Below, in pieces: positions 32,692 through 41,559 of a DNA stretch of 47,855 nt. The number at the start of each line of letters is the position of its first letter. The stretch's first letter is position 1. Source of the DNA: Deltaproteobacteria bacterium. GTDB lineage: Bacteria; Desulfobacterota; Binatia; UBA9968; JAJDTQ01. The DNA is taken from NCBI GenBank assembly GCA_028818775.1, contig JAPPNE010000046.1, forward strand, positions 1-47,855, given 5' to 3'. Made by a program: the position numbers and the translations under genes. The notes under the pieces were generated by a model. It made no database searches. It saw only the letters and a program-made list of their open reading frames with translations, and had not been told where the DNA came from.

Positions 32692-32812
32692 GAGCAATGC
32701 ATCTGCGGCACCTGGGTTCAAATGAGGCCTCGCCGCGGAGGTGGCTGGCGGTGAGCGAGCCGAATCCAAGGTCCAGCCGCAGGTCGGCAACGGGCGAAAA
32801 CAAGGAATAGTC

Positions 32813-34810
32813 ATGCTCAGGTATGCCGAGGAAATCCTGGTTCTCGTTCTTGACGAAGGGCGAGGGGAATTGGCTCCAGGCATTCCAGAGCGCTCGCTCG
32901 CCCTGGCGCTCGCCGGAGCGGTGCTGATGGACCTTGCACTCGAAGACCGCATCGATACCGATTCCGAGCGGCTGATTCTCCTGGATGCCACTCCATTGGG
33001 CGACGACATCCTCGATCCGACGCTGGCCGAGATCGCCGGCGCCGACCATGCGCATGACACGGGCTACTGGCTCGAAAGGACGGCCGGACGGGGAGACCGG
33101 ATCCGTGAGGCCGCGCTCACGCGTCTGACCGATCGCGGCATTCTGAGGTCCGAGGCGGACGGGCTGCTGTCGCTGGTTCCCTCGGTGTCTCGCGCGCGGC
33201 GCTATCCCGTGGCGGACGGTCAGTGGGTCGAAGAGACCAGGCTGCGAATCATGCGGCTTCTGTTCAGCGACGATATTCCCGATCCCCGCGATGTCGGGAT
33301 CGTCGCCCTTGCCGACGCGTGCGGCATATTTCGCACTATTCTGGCGCCGGACGAGCAGTCGCAGGTGCGTGACCGTATCGACCTGATCCGGAAGCTCGAC
33401 CTGATCACGAGGACAATGGGCCGGGCGATCGAGGACCTCGGCACGCCGGACGAACCGCTTGCGAAGCCTGCGCGACCGAAAGAGATCCCGGTCGCCCCGG
33501 GTCTTCCCTTCTTGGGCAACGGCCTCGCCATGAGTAAAGGGCTGGCGCCTTTCCTCGTCCGCCAGTACAGGGAACTCGGACCGATCTTCAGGATTCGCGC
33601 TCCCGGACGCGCATTCATATGCATGGCCGGCCCGGAGGCGACCGACTTCCTTGCGACTCACGGTGGCAAGGTATTCCGGTCGCTGGAGCCGATGGCGAAC
33701 TTCCACAACCAGATGGGCGCCTCGCGCTCGATCCTGACCATGGACGGCGTCGACCACACCACCATGCGGAAGGTCCAGGCCAAGGGATACTCCGCAAGCG
33801 TCGCGAGGGACAACGGCATGGAGATCGTGGACATCGCGCGCGCTGAGATCGCGGATTGGCCGGTGGGGAAACCGTTCGAGGTGTTGCCGGCGTTCCAGCG
33901 ACTCGTTGCCGAGCAGATGGGCCACATGATGACGGGTCTTTCGCCCCGCGGCTACACGAATGACCTGACCACGCTGCTGCGCGGGCTGCTTCTGAGTTCG
34001 GCGGTGTTCCCCAAAATCATGAAGTTGCCGCGTTTCAGGCGCGCCCGTGCGCGCGCCTTCGAGTTGGCGGAGAAACTCCTCGCACACAAGGAGCGCAATG
34101 GTCCGCGCAAGAGGAACCCGGATTTCGTGGATCTCATGCTCGAGCTCCGCGCCATCGATCCGCAGCTCGTTCCCGAGACCAACATGCCTCTGAATGTAGT
34201 GGCCCCGTACCTGGTGGGACTGGACACGACCGCGAGTACCTGTTCGTTCATGCTCCACAACGTCTTGAAGCGCCCGGATCTCATGGAGCTCATGACCGCC
34301 GAAGCAGACGCCTTCTTCGACGAGGGCCTGGAGCCGGACGAGGGGCTGCCGCGGCTGGATGTCTCGCGCCGGGCGGTGATGGAGACGCTTCGGCTCCATC
34401 CGGTCTCACCCGCCGTGCTTCGAACGGTCAGCAACTCTTTCGTGTTCGCGGGTCACACCGTTCCCGCGGGCCGGCTCGTCATGATCGGCACGTCGGTGGG
34501 ACACGGGCTCGAAGAGTACTTTCCCCAGCCGGAGAGCTTCGACATCGACCGCTACACGCCGGCTCGGGGCGAGCACCGGCAGCGGGGCGCCTACGCCCCC
34601 TTCGGGGCCGGCGGTCACCGGTGTCTCGGAGCCGGTCTTGTTCCCGTGCAGCTCGTCCTCACCATGGCGACGATCCTGCGCGAGCTTGTTCTGCAGCCGC
34701 TCGATCCCCACTACGCGTTGCGGGTGCGGTCATTCCCGACGATGCAGCCCGTCGGTTTCAAGGTCCGTATCCTCGGTCGCCGGTCACGCCACGGCTCGGC
34801 GACGAACTAG
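32813..34810 (+). CDS. GPP34 (GOLPH3-like) domain fused to a cytochrome P450
   Basis: A 665-residue two-domain protein. Residues 1 to about 205 match GPP34/GOLPH3: EEILVLVLDEGRGEL, ALAGAVLMDLALEDRI, LLDATPLGDDILDPTL, then LTRLTDRGILRSE. GOLPH3 binds phosphatidylinositol 4-phosphate and recruits glycosyltransferases; what bacterial GPP34 domains bind is not well established. A proline-rich linker (about 210-228) leads to a complete P450. It has the I-helix oxygen-activation motif GLDTT (469-473), the ExxR pair E524/R527 in ETLRLHP, and the haem loop FGAGGHRCLG with thiolate ligand Cys604. No N-terminal membrane anchor is present, so GPP34 may supply membrane attachment. AAGGA 6 nt before ATG 32813 supports the start; the frame opens at 32741. 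No fused reductase or ferredoxin is present, and none is seen nearby. The membrane acyltransferase follows after 4 nt. Confidence 0.9.
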   Translation: MLRYAEEILVLVLDEGRGELAPGIPERSLALALAGAVLMDLALEDRIDTDSERLILLDATPLGDDILDPTLAEIAGADHAHDTGYWLERTAGRGDRIREAALTRLTDRGILRSEADGLLSLVPSVSRARRYPVADGQWVEETRLRIMRLLFSDDIPDPRDVGIVALADACGIFRTILAPDEQSQVRDRIDLIRKLDLITRTMGRAIEDLGTPDEPLAKPARPKEIPVAPGLPFLGNGLAMSKGLAPFLVRQYRELGPIFRIRAPGRAFICMAGPEATDFLATHGGKVFRSLEPMANFHNQMGASRSILTMDGVDHTTMRKVQAKGYSASVARDNGMEIVDIARAEIADWPVGKPFEVLPAFQRLVAEQMGHMMTGLSPRGYTNDLTTLLRGLLLSSAVFPKIMKLPRFRRARARAFELAEKLLAHKERNGPRKRNPDFVDLMLELRAIDPQLVPETNMPLNVVAPYLVGLDTTASTCSFMLHNVLKRPDLMELMTAEADAFFDEGLEPDEGLPRLDVSRRAVMETLRLHPVSPAVLRTVSNSFVFAGHTVPAGRLVMIGTSVGHGLEEYFPQPESFDIDRYTPARGEHRQRGAYAPFGAGGHRCLGAGLVPVQLVLTMATILRELVLQPLDPHYALRVRSFPTMQPVGFKVRILGRRSRHGSATN

Positions 34811-34814
34811 AAGC

Positions 34815-36077
34815 GTGCGGGACAAACTCACCGCGAAGCAGGGATCACCACACGGCGTGCCGGAAGCCACACTCAGTCCAGTAGCCGGTGTCCGGCCCCA
34901 GGCAACTATCCCGCGGTACCATTCGCTCGACCGGCTGCGCGCGATCGTGATGATGCTCGGAGTGGTCCGGCACTCCGCGATGAGCTACGAACCCACGGTT
35001 TTCGCGGCGTGGCCGTACAGGGACGCCGATGCCGACATCCTCGCTCACTGGGTGATCGTCTTCATCCGTGTGTTCCAGTTGCCGGTCTTCTTCGCGATTT
35101 CGGGGTTCTTCGCCGCATACCTGCTCGAGACGCGCGGCATCCAGGCGTTTCTGCGGCAGCGATGGAGCCGGATCGGGGTGCCGTTCCTGGTGGCTTGGCC
35201 CGTCCTGGCAGTGACGATGTATTTCATCGTGCCGTTCACCGCCCAGTTCAGTTCCGTCCCGCCGACCCACGTCTACAGCCTGGAGGAGCTTACGTCGTCC
35301 GGCGCACTGCGCTACCTGTTCATGCATTTGTGGTTCCTCTACCACCTGATGATCCTGTGCGTGGTCGCCGGCGCAATGAGCCTGCTCGCCCGCCGCATCC
35401 CCGCGGCCGCGCGTGAACGTGTGCTGGACTTTCTCGAGCGCGTGGTGCACCGGGGAGGCATCGGGGTCCTGGCTGTCCTGGCGGGCGTCGTCCTGTACCG
35501 GATGGAGTCGTGGGCGATCGACTACTACGCGGGCCCGCTCCCGCCCCTGCGCATGCTGGGGCTGTTCGGCCTTTTCTTCGCATTCGGGTGGCTGCTTTTC
35601 CGCCGCCGGGAAGCGCTGGAGGGCTTCAAGCGCCCTGCATGGATCTCCCTCGCCGCGGGAGCCATCTGTTTCGTGGGGTACCTCGCCTTCCTCGAACTCG
35701 GCTGCAACCCTGATCCGGGCAAGACCTGCACCGGGACTTCGGAGGTCCATCATCTGGGGGCAGTGGTTTTCCTTTCGCTGTCCATGTGGTTCCTGGCCTA
35801 TGGCCTGTTCGGGTTGTTCCTTCGCTACATGAACCATCCGAGCCCCCGCTGGCGGTACATGGCGGACGCCTCTTACTGGATCTACATCGTCCACGTGCCG
35901 TTCGTTATCCTGCTGCCCCTGCTCCTCGCGAACATGCCGGCACCGGGGATCGTCAAGGTCGCGCTGGTCGTGGCCATGGCAACCGGCCTCATCCTGGTAA
36001 CCTACCGGTACTTCGTGCGGTCGACGTTTATCGGGGAACAGCTTAACGGTCGCCGTTACCCGCGGGCCGCGTCTTGA
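34815..36077 (+). CDS. Integral membrane acyltransferase (acyltransferase-3 / OpgC-like)
   Basis: A 420-residue polytopic membrane protein, about ten hydrophobic helices, of the acyltransferase-3 superfamily that O-acylates sugars, glycans, antibiotics or lipids. The opening RYHSLDRLRAIVMMLGVVRH has the LD-x-LR block and the conserved histidine at the end of helix 1. FQLPVFFAISGFFAAYLL and FLRQRWSRIGVPFL are typical of helices 2-3. The final ASYWIYIVHVPFVILLPLLL is a conserved closing segment. The first 35 residues are polar and may lie in the cytosol. The GTG start 4 nt after the P450 stop suggests coupling; alternative starts lie a little downstream. Paired expression suggests that one hydrophobic product is both oxidised and acylated, which is inference. 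Confidence 0.85.
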   Translation: MRDKLTAKQGSPHGVPEATLSPVAGVRPQATIPRYHSLDRLRAIVMMLGVVRHSAMSYEPTVFAAWPYRDADADILAHWVIVFIRVFQLPVFFAISGFFAAYLLETRGIQAFLRQRWSRIGVPFLVAWPVLAVTMYFIVPFTAQFSSVPPTHVYSLEELTSSGALRYLFMHLWFLYHLMILCVVAGAMSLLARRIPAAARERVLDFLERVVHRGGIGVLAVLAGVVLYRMESWAIDYYAGPLPPLRMLGLFGLFFAFGWLLFRRREALEGFKRPAWISLAAGAICFVGYLAFLELGCNPDPGKTCTGTSEVHHLGAVVFLSLSMWFLAYGLFGLFLRYMNHPSPRWRYMADASYWIYIVHVPFVILLPLLLANMPAPGIVKVALVVAMATGLILVTYRYFVRSTFIGEQLNGRRYPRAAS

Positions 36078-36367: not shown

Positions 36368-36724
36368 TTGTCCCGTGTGCGGGAGAGTTTCCCGAAGGAA
36401 GCCCGCCTGACCAGACGTTCCGAGTTCCTGCTGCTGGGCCGCAGGGGCCGGAAGTTCTTCACGCCGCACTTCATCATCATCCGTAAAGACAACGACCAGC
36501 TCGGCAAACGGCTGGGGGTCACGGTCAGTTCCAAGGTGGGGAACGCGGTGGTGCGCAACCGCGTGAAGCGCATGCTGCGCGAGTTCTTCCGCCGCGGGCA
36601 GGAAAACTTTCGCTCTGATCAGGATACCGTGGTGATCGCGCGCAAGGGTGCGGGAGATCTGAGCTACGCGGCGGTGACCGCCGAGCTCCGCAAGGTGATC
36701 GGTCCGAAGCCGAAAACCCGGTAA
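36368..36724 (+). CDS. rnpA: Ribonuclease P protein component
   Basis: Protein subunit that binds the 5' leader of precursor tRNA and supports the catalytic RNase P RNA. 118 residues. The N-terminal LTRRSEF and the RNR motif region [20 protein letters not shown] are conserved. TTG start at 36368, with GTG 36377 as an alternative; both lie just after rpmH. The RNA component gene was not seen in the window. Confidence 0.93.
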
Positions 36725-36729
36725 GAGGG

Positions 36730-36951
36730 ATGACGACCATCGCCCGCACCGTCGTGCGCATCTGCATCAGGGCCTACCAGCGGCTTCTCTCGCCGTTGCT
36801 GCCGCCCTGCTGCCGCTACTTCCCCACTTGCTCGGCCTACACCCTGCAGGCGGTGGACCGTCACGGCGTCGTCAAGGGCCTCTGGCTGGGCGCCCTGAGG
36901 ATCCTGCGCTGTCACCCGCTCCATGCCGGCGGCTATGACCCGGTACCGTAG
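36730..36951 (+). CDS. yidD: Membrane protein insertion efficiency factor YidD
   Basis: A 73-residue peripheral membrane protein that aids YidC/Sec-dependent insertion. [39 protein letters not shown] and [20 protein letters not shown] form the complete three-cysteine-block pattern. Starts 5 nt after rnpA and ends 6 nt before yidC, so the three genes are one transcription unit. Confidence 0.95.
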
Positions 36952-36957
36952 GCGTTC

Positions 36958-38691
36958 ATGGAAAAACGAGCTTTCATCGCGGTCATCATCTCGATCCTCA
37001 TCATCATCCTCTACCAGGAGTACATGAGGCGGTTCTATCCGCCGGTGGAGCCGCCGGCGCGGGAAACCGCGACGCAGCCCCGCAAGGAGCAGCCGGCCCC
37101 GAACCTGGTTCCGGAGCAAACCCCGTTGGCCGTGCCGGCGCCGGCGACGCCCCCGTTACCGGCGCCGCCCCCATTGCCGGAAACCGCGTCGCCGGGCACG
37201 GTCCCGGTTGAGCAGGGACCGAGGCCTTCCGTCAGGGAAGTGACGGTGGAGACCTCCGGCTACATCGCGCGCTTCACCAGCCAGGGAGCCCGGCTCACGA
37301 GCTTCCGCCTGAAGCGCTACCGTGACGATATCGCCGAGAACAGCCCGCTGATCGACATGGTTTCCCACCTCCCCGGCATGGAGTACCCGTTGGGGCTGCG
37401 CGTGCGCGGCACGCGGTCGGGGACGGACCAGGGCATCGTGTACGACGTCCAGGGCGCGGACCTCAAGCTGGGAACGGCCGACAGCGGCAGCCTCACCTTC
37501 TCGGGCGTTACGCCGGCGGGGCGCCGCGTGGTCAAGCAGTTGACCTTCAGCGGTTCCAGCTACGCCGTGGACGTCGCCGTGTCGATGGAAGGGTCTCCTC
37601 AGGCGCCGGGCCTGCTCTTTACGACTCACGGCCAGAGCAAGGGGGTCAAGAAGGACGCCAGGTTCGAGGGCGTCATCGCGTTGCGCGGCGGCGACCTCCT
37701 GCGTCCTTCGGAAATCGACACCAAGACCCCGCTCAAGCTGGACGGTGGGCTCTCCTGGGTCGGTTTCGGCCAAACCTATTTCGTCAGCGCGTTCCTGCCC
37801 CCGGAGGGCGTGGACACGAGCGCCACGGTGGTCAACAATCTCTCGCCGGAACGGCGGGAAGCCATGTCCGGCTGGTTCTCGATGGCGGACTATTCGGACA
37901 CGGTATTCGCCCTGGAGATCCGCACCCTGGGCAGCGCGGGTGCGCCGGGCACTGCCCGCTACCAGCTCTTCATGGGGCCCAAGGTCCTCAACCTGCTCAA
38001 GTCCTTCCGGCGCGGCCTCGATGAGTCCATCGATTTCGGCTACTTCGGCTTCATCTCGGTGCCGATGCTGCAGGCGATGCATTTCTTCCAGACCTATACC
38101 GGGAACTACGGCCTGGACATCATCCTGCTCACGCTCATCATCAAGCTGCTGCTGTGGCCGCTGACGCAGAAGAGCTTCGTCTCCATGAAGCGCATGCAGA
38201 AGCTCCAGCCGCAGATGCAGCGCCTCAAGGACAAGTTCGGAGACGACAAGACGCGGCTCAACAAGGAGATGATGGACCTCTACAAGCGGAACAAGGTGAA
38301 CCCGCTGGGAGGCTGTCTGCCGATGCTCCTGCAGTTCCCCTTCTTCATCGGCTTCTACAACGCCTTGCTGACGCCCATCGAATTGCGCCACGCGAGCTTC
38401 CTGTGGATCAAGGACCTGTCGCGTCCCGACTGGGAGTCGCTGCCGTTCACCCTGTTCGGGTTCGAAGCCGGCATACCGGTGCTGGTGCTGCTCATGGGAG
38501 CGAGCATGTTCATCCAGCAGTGGATGTCGCCGGCCATCGGCGACCCGAACCAGCGGCGCATGATGATGCTGATGCCGCTGATATTCACCGTGATATTCGT
38601 GAGTTTCCCGTCGGGGCTCACCATCTACTGGTTCGTCAACAACCTGCTGAGCATCCTTCAGCAGTACATGATCAACCGCAAAGAGCGCTGA
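36958..38691 (+). CDS. yidC: Membrane protein insertase YidC
   Basis: Inserts proteins into the inner membrane, alone or with SecYEG. 577 residues. An N-terminal membrane helix (about 5-20) precedes a proline-rich linker (about 25-85) and the Gram-negative-type periplasmic beta-supersandwich domain (to about 340). The conserved five-helix core follows. KRNKVNPLGGCLPMLLQFP and FFIGFYNALL are diagnostic, as is the last-helix sequence FPSGLTIYWFVNNLLSILQQ. The large periplasmic domain indicates a Gram-negative (diderm) cell. Confidence 0.97.
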   Translation: MEKRAFIAVIISILIIILYQEYMRRFYPPVEPPARETATQPRKEQPAPNLVPEQTPLAVPAPATPPLPAPPPLPETASPGTVPVEQGPRPSVREVTVETSGYIARFTSQGARLTSFRLKRYRDDIAENSPLIDMVSHLPGMEYPLGLRVRGTRSGTDQGIVYDVQGADLKLGTADSGSLTFSGVTPAGRRVVKQLTFSGSSYAVDVAVSMEGSPQAPGLLFTTHGQSKGVKKDARFEGVIALRGGDLLRPSEIDTKTPLKLDGGLSWVGFGQTYFVSAFLPPEGVDTSATVVNNLSPERREAMSGWFSMADYSDTVFALEIRTLGSAGAPGTARYQLFMGPKVLNLLKSFRRGLDESIDFGYFGFISVPMLQAMHFFQTYTGNYGLDIILLTLIIKLLLWPLTQKSFVSMKRMQKLQPQMQRLKDKFGDDKTRLNKEMMDLYKRNKVNPLGGCLPMLLQFPFFIGFYNALLTPIELRHASFLWIKDLSRPDWESLPFTLFGFEAGIPVLVLLMGASMFIQQWMSPAIGDPNQRRMMMLMPLIFTVIFVSFPSGLTIYWFVNNLLSILQQYMINRKER

Positions 38692-38746
38692 CAGCCCGCG
38701 ACGGCAGTCCCGCAGGCTGTCGCGCCCCGTGGAGGAGAGGCCTGTG

Positions 38747-39592
38747 ATGAAGCAAGTGGAAACGGAAGGGGAAACCCTTGACGAAGCCATCGCCAAGGCG
38801 CTGAGTCTGCTGGGCGTCGAGCGGGACGAGGTGTCCCTGGATATTCTGGCGGAAGAGAAGGCGGGAGTGCTCGGTTTCGGGCGCCAGAACGCGCGTGTCC
38901 GCGCCACCGTTCGGACGGCGGTGACGGCCGTGCCGGATGAGGCGGCGTCCGATCCGGGTTCCGGAGATGGGGCGCGGGAGAGCGAACCCGTGGAAGCGGC
39001 GGTCGAGGTCGACGCGCCCGGCGCCGCCGCCGATCTGTCCGGGTCGGACGAGCCCGCGGAAGATCCGTCCGCGGATGTCGACGAGAGCGTGGCGGAGGCC
39101 CGGAAGGTCGGTGTCGAGGTGCTCACGGAGATACTGCGCCTGATGGGTGTCGATTCCAGGGTCGTGGTCAAGCCGGGGCACGATTCCACGGAAGTCGTGC
39201 TCGACATCCAGGGCGACAGCGGCGCCCTCCTGATCGGCCGCCGGGGTCAGACCTTGGAAGCGCTGCAGCACATCGTCAGCCGCATCGTCGCGGAGAAGGT
39301 CGGACCGGACGGTCCGCAGCCCATCGTCGACGCCGAAGACTACCGCGGCCGGCGTGTCCGCACCCTGGAGGACATGGCCCTCCGACTGGGCGAGAAGGCC
39401 AAACGCAGCCGCAAGACCCAGAGCATCGACGCGCTCAACGCGCGCGACCGGCGCGTCGTCCACATGGCGTTGAAGGACGACCCTTGGCTCACCACCAAGA
39501 GCCAGGGCCAAGGCGCCTTCCGCCGCCTCCTCATCGTCCCCGAGGGGGACCGGCGTTCGCTCGACGAGGAGGGCGTCGGCGACGACCGGTGA
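38747..39592 (+). CDS. jag: Jag/KhpB RNA-binding protein (Jag-N, KH, R3H)
   Basis: A single-stranded nucleic-acid-binding protein linked to cell-envelope control and small-RNA biology. 281 residues. The Jag-N domain (about 1-60) includes LDILAEEKAGVLGFG. An acidic, alanine-rich linker (about 65-125) is followed by a KH domain with the GxxG loop GRRG. The C-terminal R3H domain carries the R-R-V-V-H signature (ARDRRVVHMAL). GGAGGAGAGG 6 nt before ATG 38747 sets the start; GTG at 38744 is adjacent. Normally sits between yidC and mnmE, but mnmE is 30 kb away here. Confidence 0.94.
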   Translation: MKQVETEGETLDEAIAKALSLLGVERDEVSLDILAEEKAGVLGFGRQNARVRATVRTAVTAVPDEAASDPGSGDGARESEPVEAAVEVDAPGAAADLSGSDEPAEDPSADVDESVAEARKVGVEVLTEILRLMGVDSRVVVKPGHDSTEVVLDIQGDSGALLIGRRGQTLEALQHIVSRIVAEKVGPDGPQPIVDAEDYRGRRVRTLEDMALRLGEKAKRSRKTQSIDALNARDRRVVHMALKDDPWLTTKSQGQGAFRRLLIVPEGDRRSLDEEGVGDDR

Positions 39593-39651
39593 GGGGTTCC
39601 CCGCGCTCCGGCAAGTTCCGAAAAAATTCTCCGCAAGGGTGATCCGGCCTA

Positions 39652-39679
39652 TTGACTTGGGTGGGTGCAGGTCTATAAT
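39652..39679 (+). promoter_or_regulatory. Sigma-70 promoter of the tetR-RND operon
   Basis: TTGACT (39652-39657), a 16-bp spacer and a perfect TATAAT (39674-39679). The start point near 39686 falls on the operator palindrome, so bound repressor would block initiation. Confidence 0.75.
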
Positions 39680-39685
39680 TTTCAT

Positions 39686-39703
39686 TGACCGGCTGGCCGG
39701 TCA
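39686..39703. promoter_or_regulatory. TetR-family operator palindrome
   Basis: TGACCGGC-TG-GCCGGTCA has perfect 8-bp arms and a 2-bp centre. It lies between the -10 element and the tetR start codon, the classic place for TetR/AcrR autoregulation. Confidence 0.7.
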
Positions 39704-39712
39704 TGTTGAGAA

Positions 39713-40312
39713 ATGCCTATCGTTGTCGACAAGGAGCGCAAACGCGCCGAGATCCTGGAAGCGGCGATGCTGGTCTTCGCCAGCAAGGGCTTTCATCGCG
39801 CCAAGATGGAGGAAGTGGCGGCCGCCGCGCAGATCGGCAAGGGCACCATCTACGAGTACTTCACCAGCAAGCCGCAAATGCTGCAGGCCCTCCACGGCCA
39901 CATGCTGGGCAAGCTCAAGGACTACTACAGCGAGAAGCTCAAGGGCATCGAGGAGCCTCCGGAGATCCTCGCCCACTTCCTGGCCGCGGCCCTCGCGAGC
40001 TTCCGGGAATGGGAGCCCTTCTTCTACGTCTTCTGCGACGTCTGGGCCGAAGCCGGCCGGGCCGAGCAGCAGAACCTCCTGCGGATGCAGTTGCGCGAGT
40101 CCTACCAGTCCTCCATCGACGACCTCACCGGGGTGGTCGAGGCGGGGGTGGCCGGCGGATTCTTCCGTTGCGAACAGCCCCGGCTGGCGGCCGAGTACAT
40201 TCTCGCCTGCGTCGACGGGCTGGCGCTCCACTGGCTCTATGACCAGGAGGCGTTCGACCTGGGCGAGATGACCGAGTCCCTGACCCGGACGGTCCTGAGG
40301 AGCCTGTCGTGA
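39713..40312 (+). CDS. TetR/AcrR family transcriptional repressor
   Basis: A 199-residue one-component regulator. The N-terminal DNA-binding domain (about 8-55) carries RAEILEAAMLVFASKGFHRA and the helix-turn-helix AAAAQIGKGTIYEYFTSK. The C-terminal ligand domain is helical and too variable to indicate an inducer. It overlaps the RND adaptor gene by 4 nt (GTGA), so repressor and pump are made from one transcript. The palindrome at its promoter indicates negative autoregulation with relief by a pump substrate. Confidence 0.93.
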   Translation: MPIVVDKERKRAEILEAAMLVFASKGFHRAKMEEVAAAAQIGKGTIYEYFTSKPQMLQALHGHMLGKLKDYYSEKLKGIEEPPEILAHFLAAALASFREWEPFFYVFCDVWAEAGRAEQQNLLRMQLRESYQSSIDDLTGVVEAGVAGGFFRCEQPRLAAEYILACVDGLALHWLYDQEAFDLGEMTESLTRTVLRSLS

Positions 40313-41559
40313 AAGTCCGCATCGCCGTCTCCGTATTGTTGATCCTGCTCCTGAGCGCGGTGACCGCGGTGGGCGTGTACGTGATCCAGGACGTGGAGGA
40401 GAAGCCGCCGGTCGAGCCCGAAGCGGTGCCCGTGCCCGTGGAGGTGGCCGCGGTCACGGCCGCGGACTTCGTGCACCGGATCGAAGCCTTGGGGAGCATC
40501 GCCGCGGTGCGCGAGGGGCCGGTCAGCGCCGAGGTCGCCGGCCGCATTGTCGAGATCCCGGCGGACGTCGACCTGGGGAGCGAGGTGGCGGCCGGCGATC
40601 TGCTGGCCAGGGTGGATCACCGGGACTACGAGATCGCGGTAAGGAAGGCCGCGGCCCAAGTGTCCGGGGCCAGGGCGCGGCTGCGCAAGGCCGCGGTGGA
40701 CATCGAGCGGCAGCGCAAGCTGGTGAGCCTCAACGGGGAACAGTTCCGGCTCGCGCGCGCGGAGCACGACCGCCTCGTCAAGCTGCGCGAGAAGGGGCTC
40801 GTGTCCAGTCAGGAAGTCGAACGGCAGGAGCTTTCCTGGCGGCGCATCGAGGAGGAGCTCGAGTCGGCCCGGAGCGGACAGCGCCAGACCGAAGCCCTGT
40901 ACGCCATCGCCCAGGCGGACCTCGACCTCGCCGGCGCGCAGTTGGAACAGGCTCGGGAGACGCTGCGCGACACCGGGATCCGGGCGCCCTTTGCCGGCAT
41001 CATCGCGCGCAAGAGCGTCACCCTTGGGGAGCGGGTCGCGCCGGGCCAGGTGCTCTTCCAGCTTTCCGACGTGGAGACGGTGAAGCTCGACGTGCGTATC
41101 CCGGCCTCCGAGATTCAACAAATCGACCCGCGGGTCGCCGCCAGCGTGCGGGTGACCGGTCTCGAGCGGGAACTCACCGGACAGGTGGCCAACATCGGCC
41201 CGCGCGCCGACCCGGGCACACGCTCCTTCCCCGTGGAGATCTTCCTGTCCAATCCGGAGCGCCGGCTTCTTCCCGGAATGTTCGCGCGGGCCATGATTCC
41301 GGTCCGCGCCTATCCGGCGGCCATTCTGATCCCGCGGGAGAGCGTCCTCTTCGAGGGCGGCGGAGCCACCGTCTTCGTGGCCGACCCTGATTCCGGCCGC
41401 GCGGCGCGGCGCGCGGTGCGCATCGCCGGGCGTTTCGGCGCGCGCTACATGATCGCCGGGGGCCTTGAGCCCGGAGACCTCCTCGTCATCGCCGGGCAGC
41501 GCCTGCTGCTGGACGGCGCGCGCATTCGCGTGGTCACGCGCCGGGATCTCTCCTCATGA
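40309..41559 (+). CDS. RND efflux periplasmic adaptor (membrane-fusion protein)
   Basis: Bridges the inner-membrane RND pump to an outer-membrane channel. 416 residues. An N-terminal hydrophobic anchor or signal (about 4-24, RIAVSVLLILLLSAVTAVGV) has no lipobox cysteine. The lipoyl half-motifs, a long alpha-hairpin (about 110-220, rich in R, E, A, L) and TGIRAPFAGIIARKSVTLGERVAPG follow. The beta-barrel and membrane-proximal domains complete it. GTG start inside the tetR stop. The pump gene overlaps its end by 4 nt. No TolC-like gene is in the window. Confidence 0.93.
   Translation: MKVRIAVSVLLILLLSAVTAVGVYVIQDVEEKPPVEPEAVPVPVEVAAVTAADFVHRIEALGSIAAVREGPVSAEVAGRIVEIPADVDLGSEVAAGDLLARVDHRDYEIAVRKAAAQVSGARARLRKAAVDIERQRKLVSLNGEQFRLARAEHDRLVKLREKGLVSSQEVERQELSWRRIEEELESARSGQRQTEALYAIAQADLDLAGAQLEQARETLRDTGIRAPFAGIIARKSVTLGERVAPGQVLFQLSDVETVKLDVRIPASEIQQIDPRVAASVRVTGLERELTGQVANIGPRADPGTRSFPVEIFLSNPERRLLPGMFARAMIPVRAYPAAILIPRESVLFEGGGATVFVADPDSGRAARRAVRIAGRFGARYMIAGGLEPGDLLVIAGQRLLLDGARIRVVTRRDLSS

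Follow-up and report, generated by a model that had tools for sequence, protein, structure and literature searches.

The window, meaning the whole stretch of 47,855 nucleotides analysed here, carries on its forward strand a GPP34-P450 fusion gene at 32813–34810, exactly the coordinates given in an earlier note made from the sequence alone. The gene is a single frame of 665 codons with no internal stop; it starts with ATG, is preceded by an AAGGA-like ribosome site (32802–32806), and encodes a protein of 665 aa. Pfam placed a GPP34 (GOLPH3/Vps74-like) domain at residues 5–207 (32825–33433; PF05719, 118.8 bits against a cut-off of 29.1, E 4e-34), covering positions 2–199 of the 201 in the profile, and a cytochrome P450 domain at residues 227–629 (33491–34699; PF00067, 157.8 bits against a cut-off of 22.8, E 5e-46). 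A short linker (residues 208–226; 33434–33490) joins them. These results bore out the architecture that the note had described, GPP34 followed by a complete P450 in one open reading frame, and the HMM search it had proposed for GPP34 in residues 1–205 returned the match at 5–207. The P450 catalytic motifs, which it had listed as all present, were intact: the I-helix oxygen-activation motif VGLDTTAS (residues 468–475; 34214–34237); the ExxR motif ETLR (residues 524–527; 34382–34393), with E524 and R527 invariant in the alignment; and the heme-ligand loop FGAGGHRCLG (residues 597–606; 34601–34630), whose heme ligand Cys604 (34622–34624) was invariant across 58 aligned fusions. As also claimed, no hydrophobic anchor was found at the N-terminus of the fusion; hydrophobicity peaks within the P450, along the helix at its heme cysteine. 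The full-length model had a mean pLDDT of 85; owing to its pTM of 0.67 and a low-confidence linker (pLDDT below 50 at residues 211–221), the relative placement of the two modelled halves is untrustworthy.

A gene for a membrane acyltransferase (Acyl_transf_3; 34815–36077, forward strand; best NCBIfam relative MdoC) follows, with a likely GTG start 4 bp 3ʹ of the fusion stop, and the two genes sit between gpsA and rnpA. In seven genomes of the same genus, gpsA lay next to rnpA and the interval held no homologue of either member of the pair, and two of the seven carried the pair at another site. On account of these empty sites, the presence of the pair elsewhere in two congeners and the 4-bp gap, we conclude that the fusion and the acyltransferase move and are inherited together. 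The window also holds housekeeping genes (8327–31453 and 36368–41556), including mnmG, parB, ATP synthase, chorismate/dehydroquinate synthases, gyrB, gyrA, rnpA, yidC and jag, after which come a TetR regulator and then an HlyD-type pump subunit.

The source records are metagenome-assembled and stray contigs are possible in bins, so the join between GPP34 and P450 might be an artefact of assembly or binning, a possibility that the note had itself named. Full-length fusions of 84–85% identity were present in two genomes of the same genus, and scanning with each species represented by a single genome recovered 80 loci, 76 of which were fusions (34–86% identity). The same join with its short linker in 76 loci of other genomes, several of them on contigs that are complete or of megabase size (L069, L073, L076, L078 and L103), rules out an assembly join of two genes and makes an artefact of any such kind vanishingly improbable; the fusion is real and conserved. 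Eight of the 76 fusions, the Gemmatimonadota copies L049–L056, were all interrupted at an identical codon following residue 608, just past the heme-loop codons. Beyond the break they shared a common sequence of up to ~135 bp (e.g., L056:11825–11953), after which the contigs ended or diverged, and a partial copy also lay at L048:3287–3405. This sequence has the appearance of a repeat or a mobile element; a group II intron or other known RNA element was set aside, as no Rfam match was found in the four of the eight loci checked.

The fusion loci spanned about ten phyla by phylum label (Gemmatimonadota, Acidobacteriota, Binatota, Pseudomonadota, Rhodothermota, Nitrospirota, Latescibacterota, Deinococcota, Bacteroidota and others). 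Phylum labels changed 29 times in the fusion tree, against a minimum possible of 11, and closely related copies fell under different phyla, such as Gemmatimonadota L070 and Gammaproteobacteria L072. Because the tree scatters the phyla and places close copies under different phylum names, its whole pattern indicates horizontal transfer of the fusion, and bin errors may explain part of it. A sampling of the window's phylum gave a GPP34 match in one genome out of 198, and in the phylum of L063 the cut-off was passed in 28 genomes out of 297, about half of these 28 having fusion-sized frames; the family is thus patchy and not lineage-wide. The window's genome (G000) also contains two stand-alone GPP34 genes in tandem (contig C36:37022–38797; L116:8014–9840), which adjoin UbiD, class II aldolase, HlyD and TauD-type genes. 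At L088, L090 and L112, two distinct GPP34-P450 fusions lie near each other in one pump-containing region. A viral origin was rejected, as no relatives of the fusion were found among the viral contigs searched, and no single place in any of 72,556 plasmid records spanned 80% of the query. The isolate names RHO, COS, SB06xx, Palauibacter rhopaloidicola, bin119 and bin18 resemble, we presume, marine sponge series, and the fusion-bearing bacteria appear from these names to be mostly marine-sponge-associated; this reading covers the names just listed and not the jk18x and p16x series, from which the nearest relatives of the window come.

Searched against solved structures, the profile of the N-terminal half matched human GOLPH3, a membrane adaptor of the Golgi, and yeast Vps74 (E ~1e-11; GOLPH3 3kn1, E 1e-11), and the model of this half (pLDDT 92) aligned with TM 0.77 to GOLPH3 (9qpq_B) and 0.75 to 3kn1. 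Mean pairwise identity was 50% for GPP34 and 42% for P450; as GPP34 identity was the higher in 1511 of 1653 pairs, the domain is, by this sequence comparison, under strong constraint. The residues of GOLPH3 that contact PI4P, which we take to be W81, R90, R171 and R174, correspond to about Pro25, about Ala34, about Asp95 and Arg98, respectively, with Pro in 46, Ala in 54, Asp in 34 and, a partial retention, Arg in 32 of the 58 fusions. Since three of the four contact residues (W81, R90 and R171) are lost, PI4P binding by the GPP34 of the fusion is unlikely; the phosphoinositide-pocket analogy suggested by the earlier note did not hold, and casting the fusion as a PI4P effector by analogy with GOLPH3 is unsupported. 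A conserved basic stretch after Arg98 (Arg127 in 50, Arg130 in 43 and Tyr131 in 57 of the 58) is a candidate contact site. It is plausible that GPP34 brings the fusion to the membrane, and its ligand may be another lipid or a protein partner.

A protein partner would fit a different role, in which GPP34 is a docking module and the P450 is held in a tailoring complex by a membrane partner, be it the acyltransferase, a cyclase or a pump, without lipid binding, on the model of GOLPH3 with glycosyltransferase tails. The tight operon partners of the fusions are membrane proteins or membrane-associated enzymes, and the PI4P residues have been lost while the GPP34 half is highly conserved, both consistent with docking. 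However, the clades differ in their partner (acyltransferase, sulfotransferase or Rieske enzyme), so that one surface would have to fit several, and we regard docking of this kind as rather unlikely.

For the P450 half, the best solved match by both sequence and fold was CYP51 from the M. capsulatus CYP51-ferredoxin (E 2.5e-32). CYP51 membership is defined by at least 40% identity to members and HT(S) in the I-helix; the window's P450 shows only 23–24% identity to the nearest solved CYP51 and has DT, not HT, and was ruled out as a CYP51, while some fusion subfamilies have a CYP51-like HT. The NCBIfam equivalogs pentalenene oxygenase and albaflavenone monooxygenase were likewise rejected, as the scores (85.2 against 800 bits and 80.9 against 700 bits) fell below the cut-offs. 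Among the 72,556 plasmid records, the top match was a P450 on Planktothrix agardhii plasmid p2 (WP_227398350.1; 33% identity over the P450 half), which, unlike the fusion, has no GPP34; the 187-aa gene preceding it, considered as a GPP34, proved to be a truncated P450. The Planktothrix cluster contains genes for squalene epoxidase, a squalene-hopene-type cyclase, squalene/phytoene synthase and a KshA-Rieske enzyme.

P450-only close relatives (L099, L100 and L102) also lay within the fusion tree, and as these have no GPP34, the domain is not essential to the P450 chemistry; no significant match to a GPP34 remnant was found upstream of the P450-only L095, L099, L100 and L102. In a large subfamily, the L082–L114 type (e.g., L097 and L103), the I-helix was one residue shorter and read AG-HYLGSA or AS-IYLGSG, the usual acid/threonine pair being absent. 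This suggests altered or non-monooxygenase chemistry for this type, so that monooxygenase activity need not extend to the whole family.

In several clades, partner genes lay within a few bp of the fusion, on either side. Sulfotransfer_3 genes occurred near 19 of the 80 loci, commonly 12–13 bp downstream and in other clades upstream, and genes for Acyl_transf_3 (10/80), KshA-type Rieske oxygenases (10/80), flavin amine oxidases (9/80), RND pumps (22/80), HlyD (10/80) and OEP (10/80) also recurred. An ecdysteroid-kinase-like gene was present at L058 and again adjoining the unfused P450 of L099. At L063, L067, L069 and L071, the stop of a squalene-hopene cyclase gene (DCDDTA motif) overlaps the fusion start as ATGA, giving operons laid out as cyclase-fusion-sulfotransferase or cyclase-fusion-pump. 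Genome G044 has two sulfotransferase matches genome-wide, one of which adjoins the fusion; a rough binomial estimate, in which the count of independent clades is a judgement, made chance adjacency very small. A complete sterol pathway was not seen beside any fusion in the neighbourhoods of the 80 loci. The neighbours point to polycyclic isoprenoids, and the nearness to CYP51 and the Planktothrix cluster agree with them on such a substrate. The suggestion in the note that the oxygenase is placed on a membrane or on a lipid-linked substrate sits well with neighbours such as a triterpene cyclase, sulfotransferases, acyltransferases and Rieske enzymes of the steroid-hydroxylase type. The broad horizontal spread, the probable sponge association and the isoprenoid link go beyond what that note could see from the letters.

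The window's genome has squalene-synthesis genes, and neither a squalene-hopene nor an oxidosqualene cyclase was found in it or in three congeners, so that the substrate there has to be linear, imported or the product of an unrecognised cyclase. On contig C59 of this genome (L119:8251–16840), a squalene/phytoene synthase pair, an amine-oxidase gene and IspH stand in a row, and the group also holds an MMPL protein with a sterol-sensing-domain match. Such a row in a genome with no cyclase would suit another isoprenoid, e.g., a C30 carotenoid or squalene, in place of a cyclised triterpenoid or sterol; the flavin amine oxidases that recur next to fusions count in the same direction, as does the pigment production that a survey reports for Binatota (PMC8262859). 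However, other lineages combine the fusion with a squalene-hopene cyclase in one operon and place it beside KshA-type steroid oxygenases, and we consider an uncyclised substrate fairly improbable.

With no cyclase in its own genome, the enzyme might also attack sterols of the host sponge or foreign terpenoids, as detoxification or for food, with the products exported by the RND, HlyD and OEP pumps encoded beside many fusions. The KshA-type Rieske neighbours would fit such an attack, as enzymes of this type act in steroid breakdown in known bacteria. Yet sulfotransferases and acyltransferases cap oxygens and do not degrade rings, and the cyclase-fusion-sulfotransferase operon has a biosynthetic layout, which leaves an attack on host sterols or foreign terpenoids quite unlikely in our judgement.

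The reading we prefer is that the fusion is a triterpenoid- or sterol-tailoring monooxygenase held at the membrane by its GPP34 adaptor, with the product then acylated or sulfated; we put its chance of being right at about even. The P450 itself would be soluble and would gain membrane contact from the N-terminal GPP34, which would replace a transmembrane helix, or would be held at membrane partners. The P450 half would hydroxylate a polycyclic isoprenoid, most likely a membrane-resident triterpenoid or sterol, and the adjoining enzyme would cap the new oxygen, by acylation in the window's lineage and by sulfation in others. The decorated lipid would be kept in the envelope or exported, and the gene pair would spread horizontally among bacteria, apparently mainly sponge symbionts. 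More tentatively, bacterial GPP34 could be a membrane-recruitment module for triterpenoid/sterol-tailoring oxygenases in a horizontally shared sponge-symbiont pathway to acylated or sulfated polycyclic isoprenoids. If true, symbionts would make isoprenoids of this kind that have so far been credited to the sponge or are of obscure origin. The source of sponge steroid-like lipids is debated (PMC9531527), and the fusion marks candidate symbiont genes for them. A conserved fusion with a guessable substrate class also offers a handle on the role of GPP34 outside the Golgi, and bears on whether membrane adaptation can be uncoupled from the sensing of PI4P. We know of no function for bacterial GPP34 proteins.

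P450 fusions and GPP34 are each already known, and their combination is undescribed as far as checked: in the literature searched, which took in few subscription papers and in which the name GPP34 belongs mostly to insecticidal proteins or to eukaryotic cell biology, the architecture was unreported and no function was given for bacterial GPP34. Compared with GOLPH3/Vps74, the N-terminal half shares the fold (TM 0.77) and a significant profile match over the whole GPP34 domain, but it is bacterial, is fused to an oxygenase, has only ~17% identity and lacks W81, R90 and R171. The M. capsulatus CYP51-ferredoxin, like the fusion, is a bacterial P450 to which a further domain is attached, a ferredoxin there and an N-terminal GPP34 here. 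Ircinia symbionts carry steroid gene clusters (ERG24-CYP51-LSS) under horizontal transfer (PMC9531527). The operon is a different one and the main text of that study contains no GPP34, but these clusters, like the fusion as we read it, represent isoprenoid-oxidising P450 genes moving horizontally across sponge-symbiont phyla.
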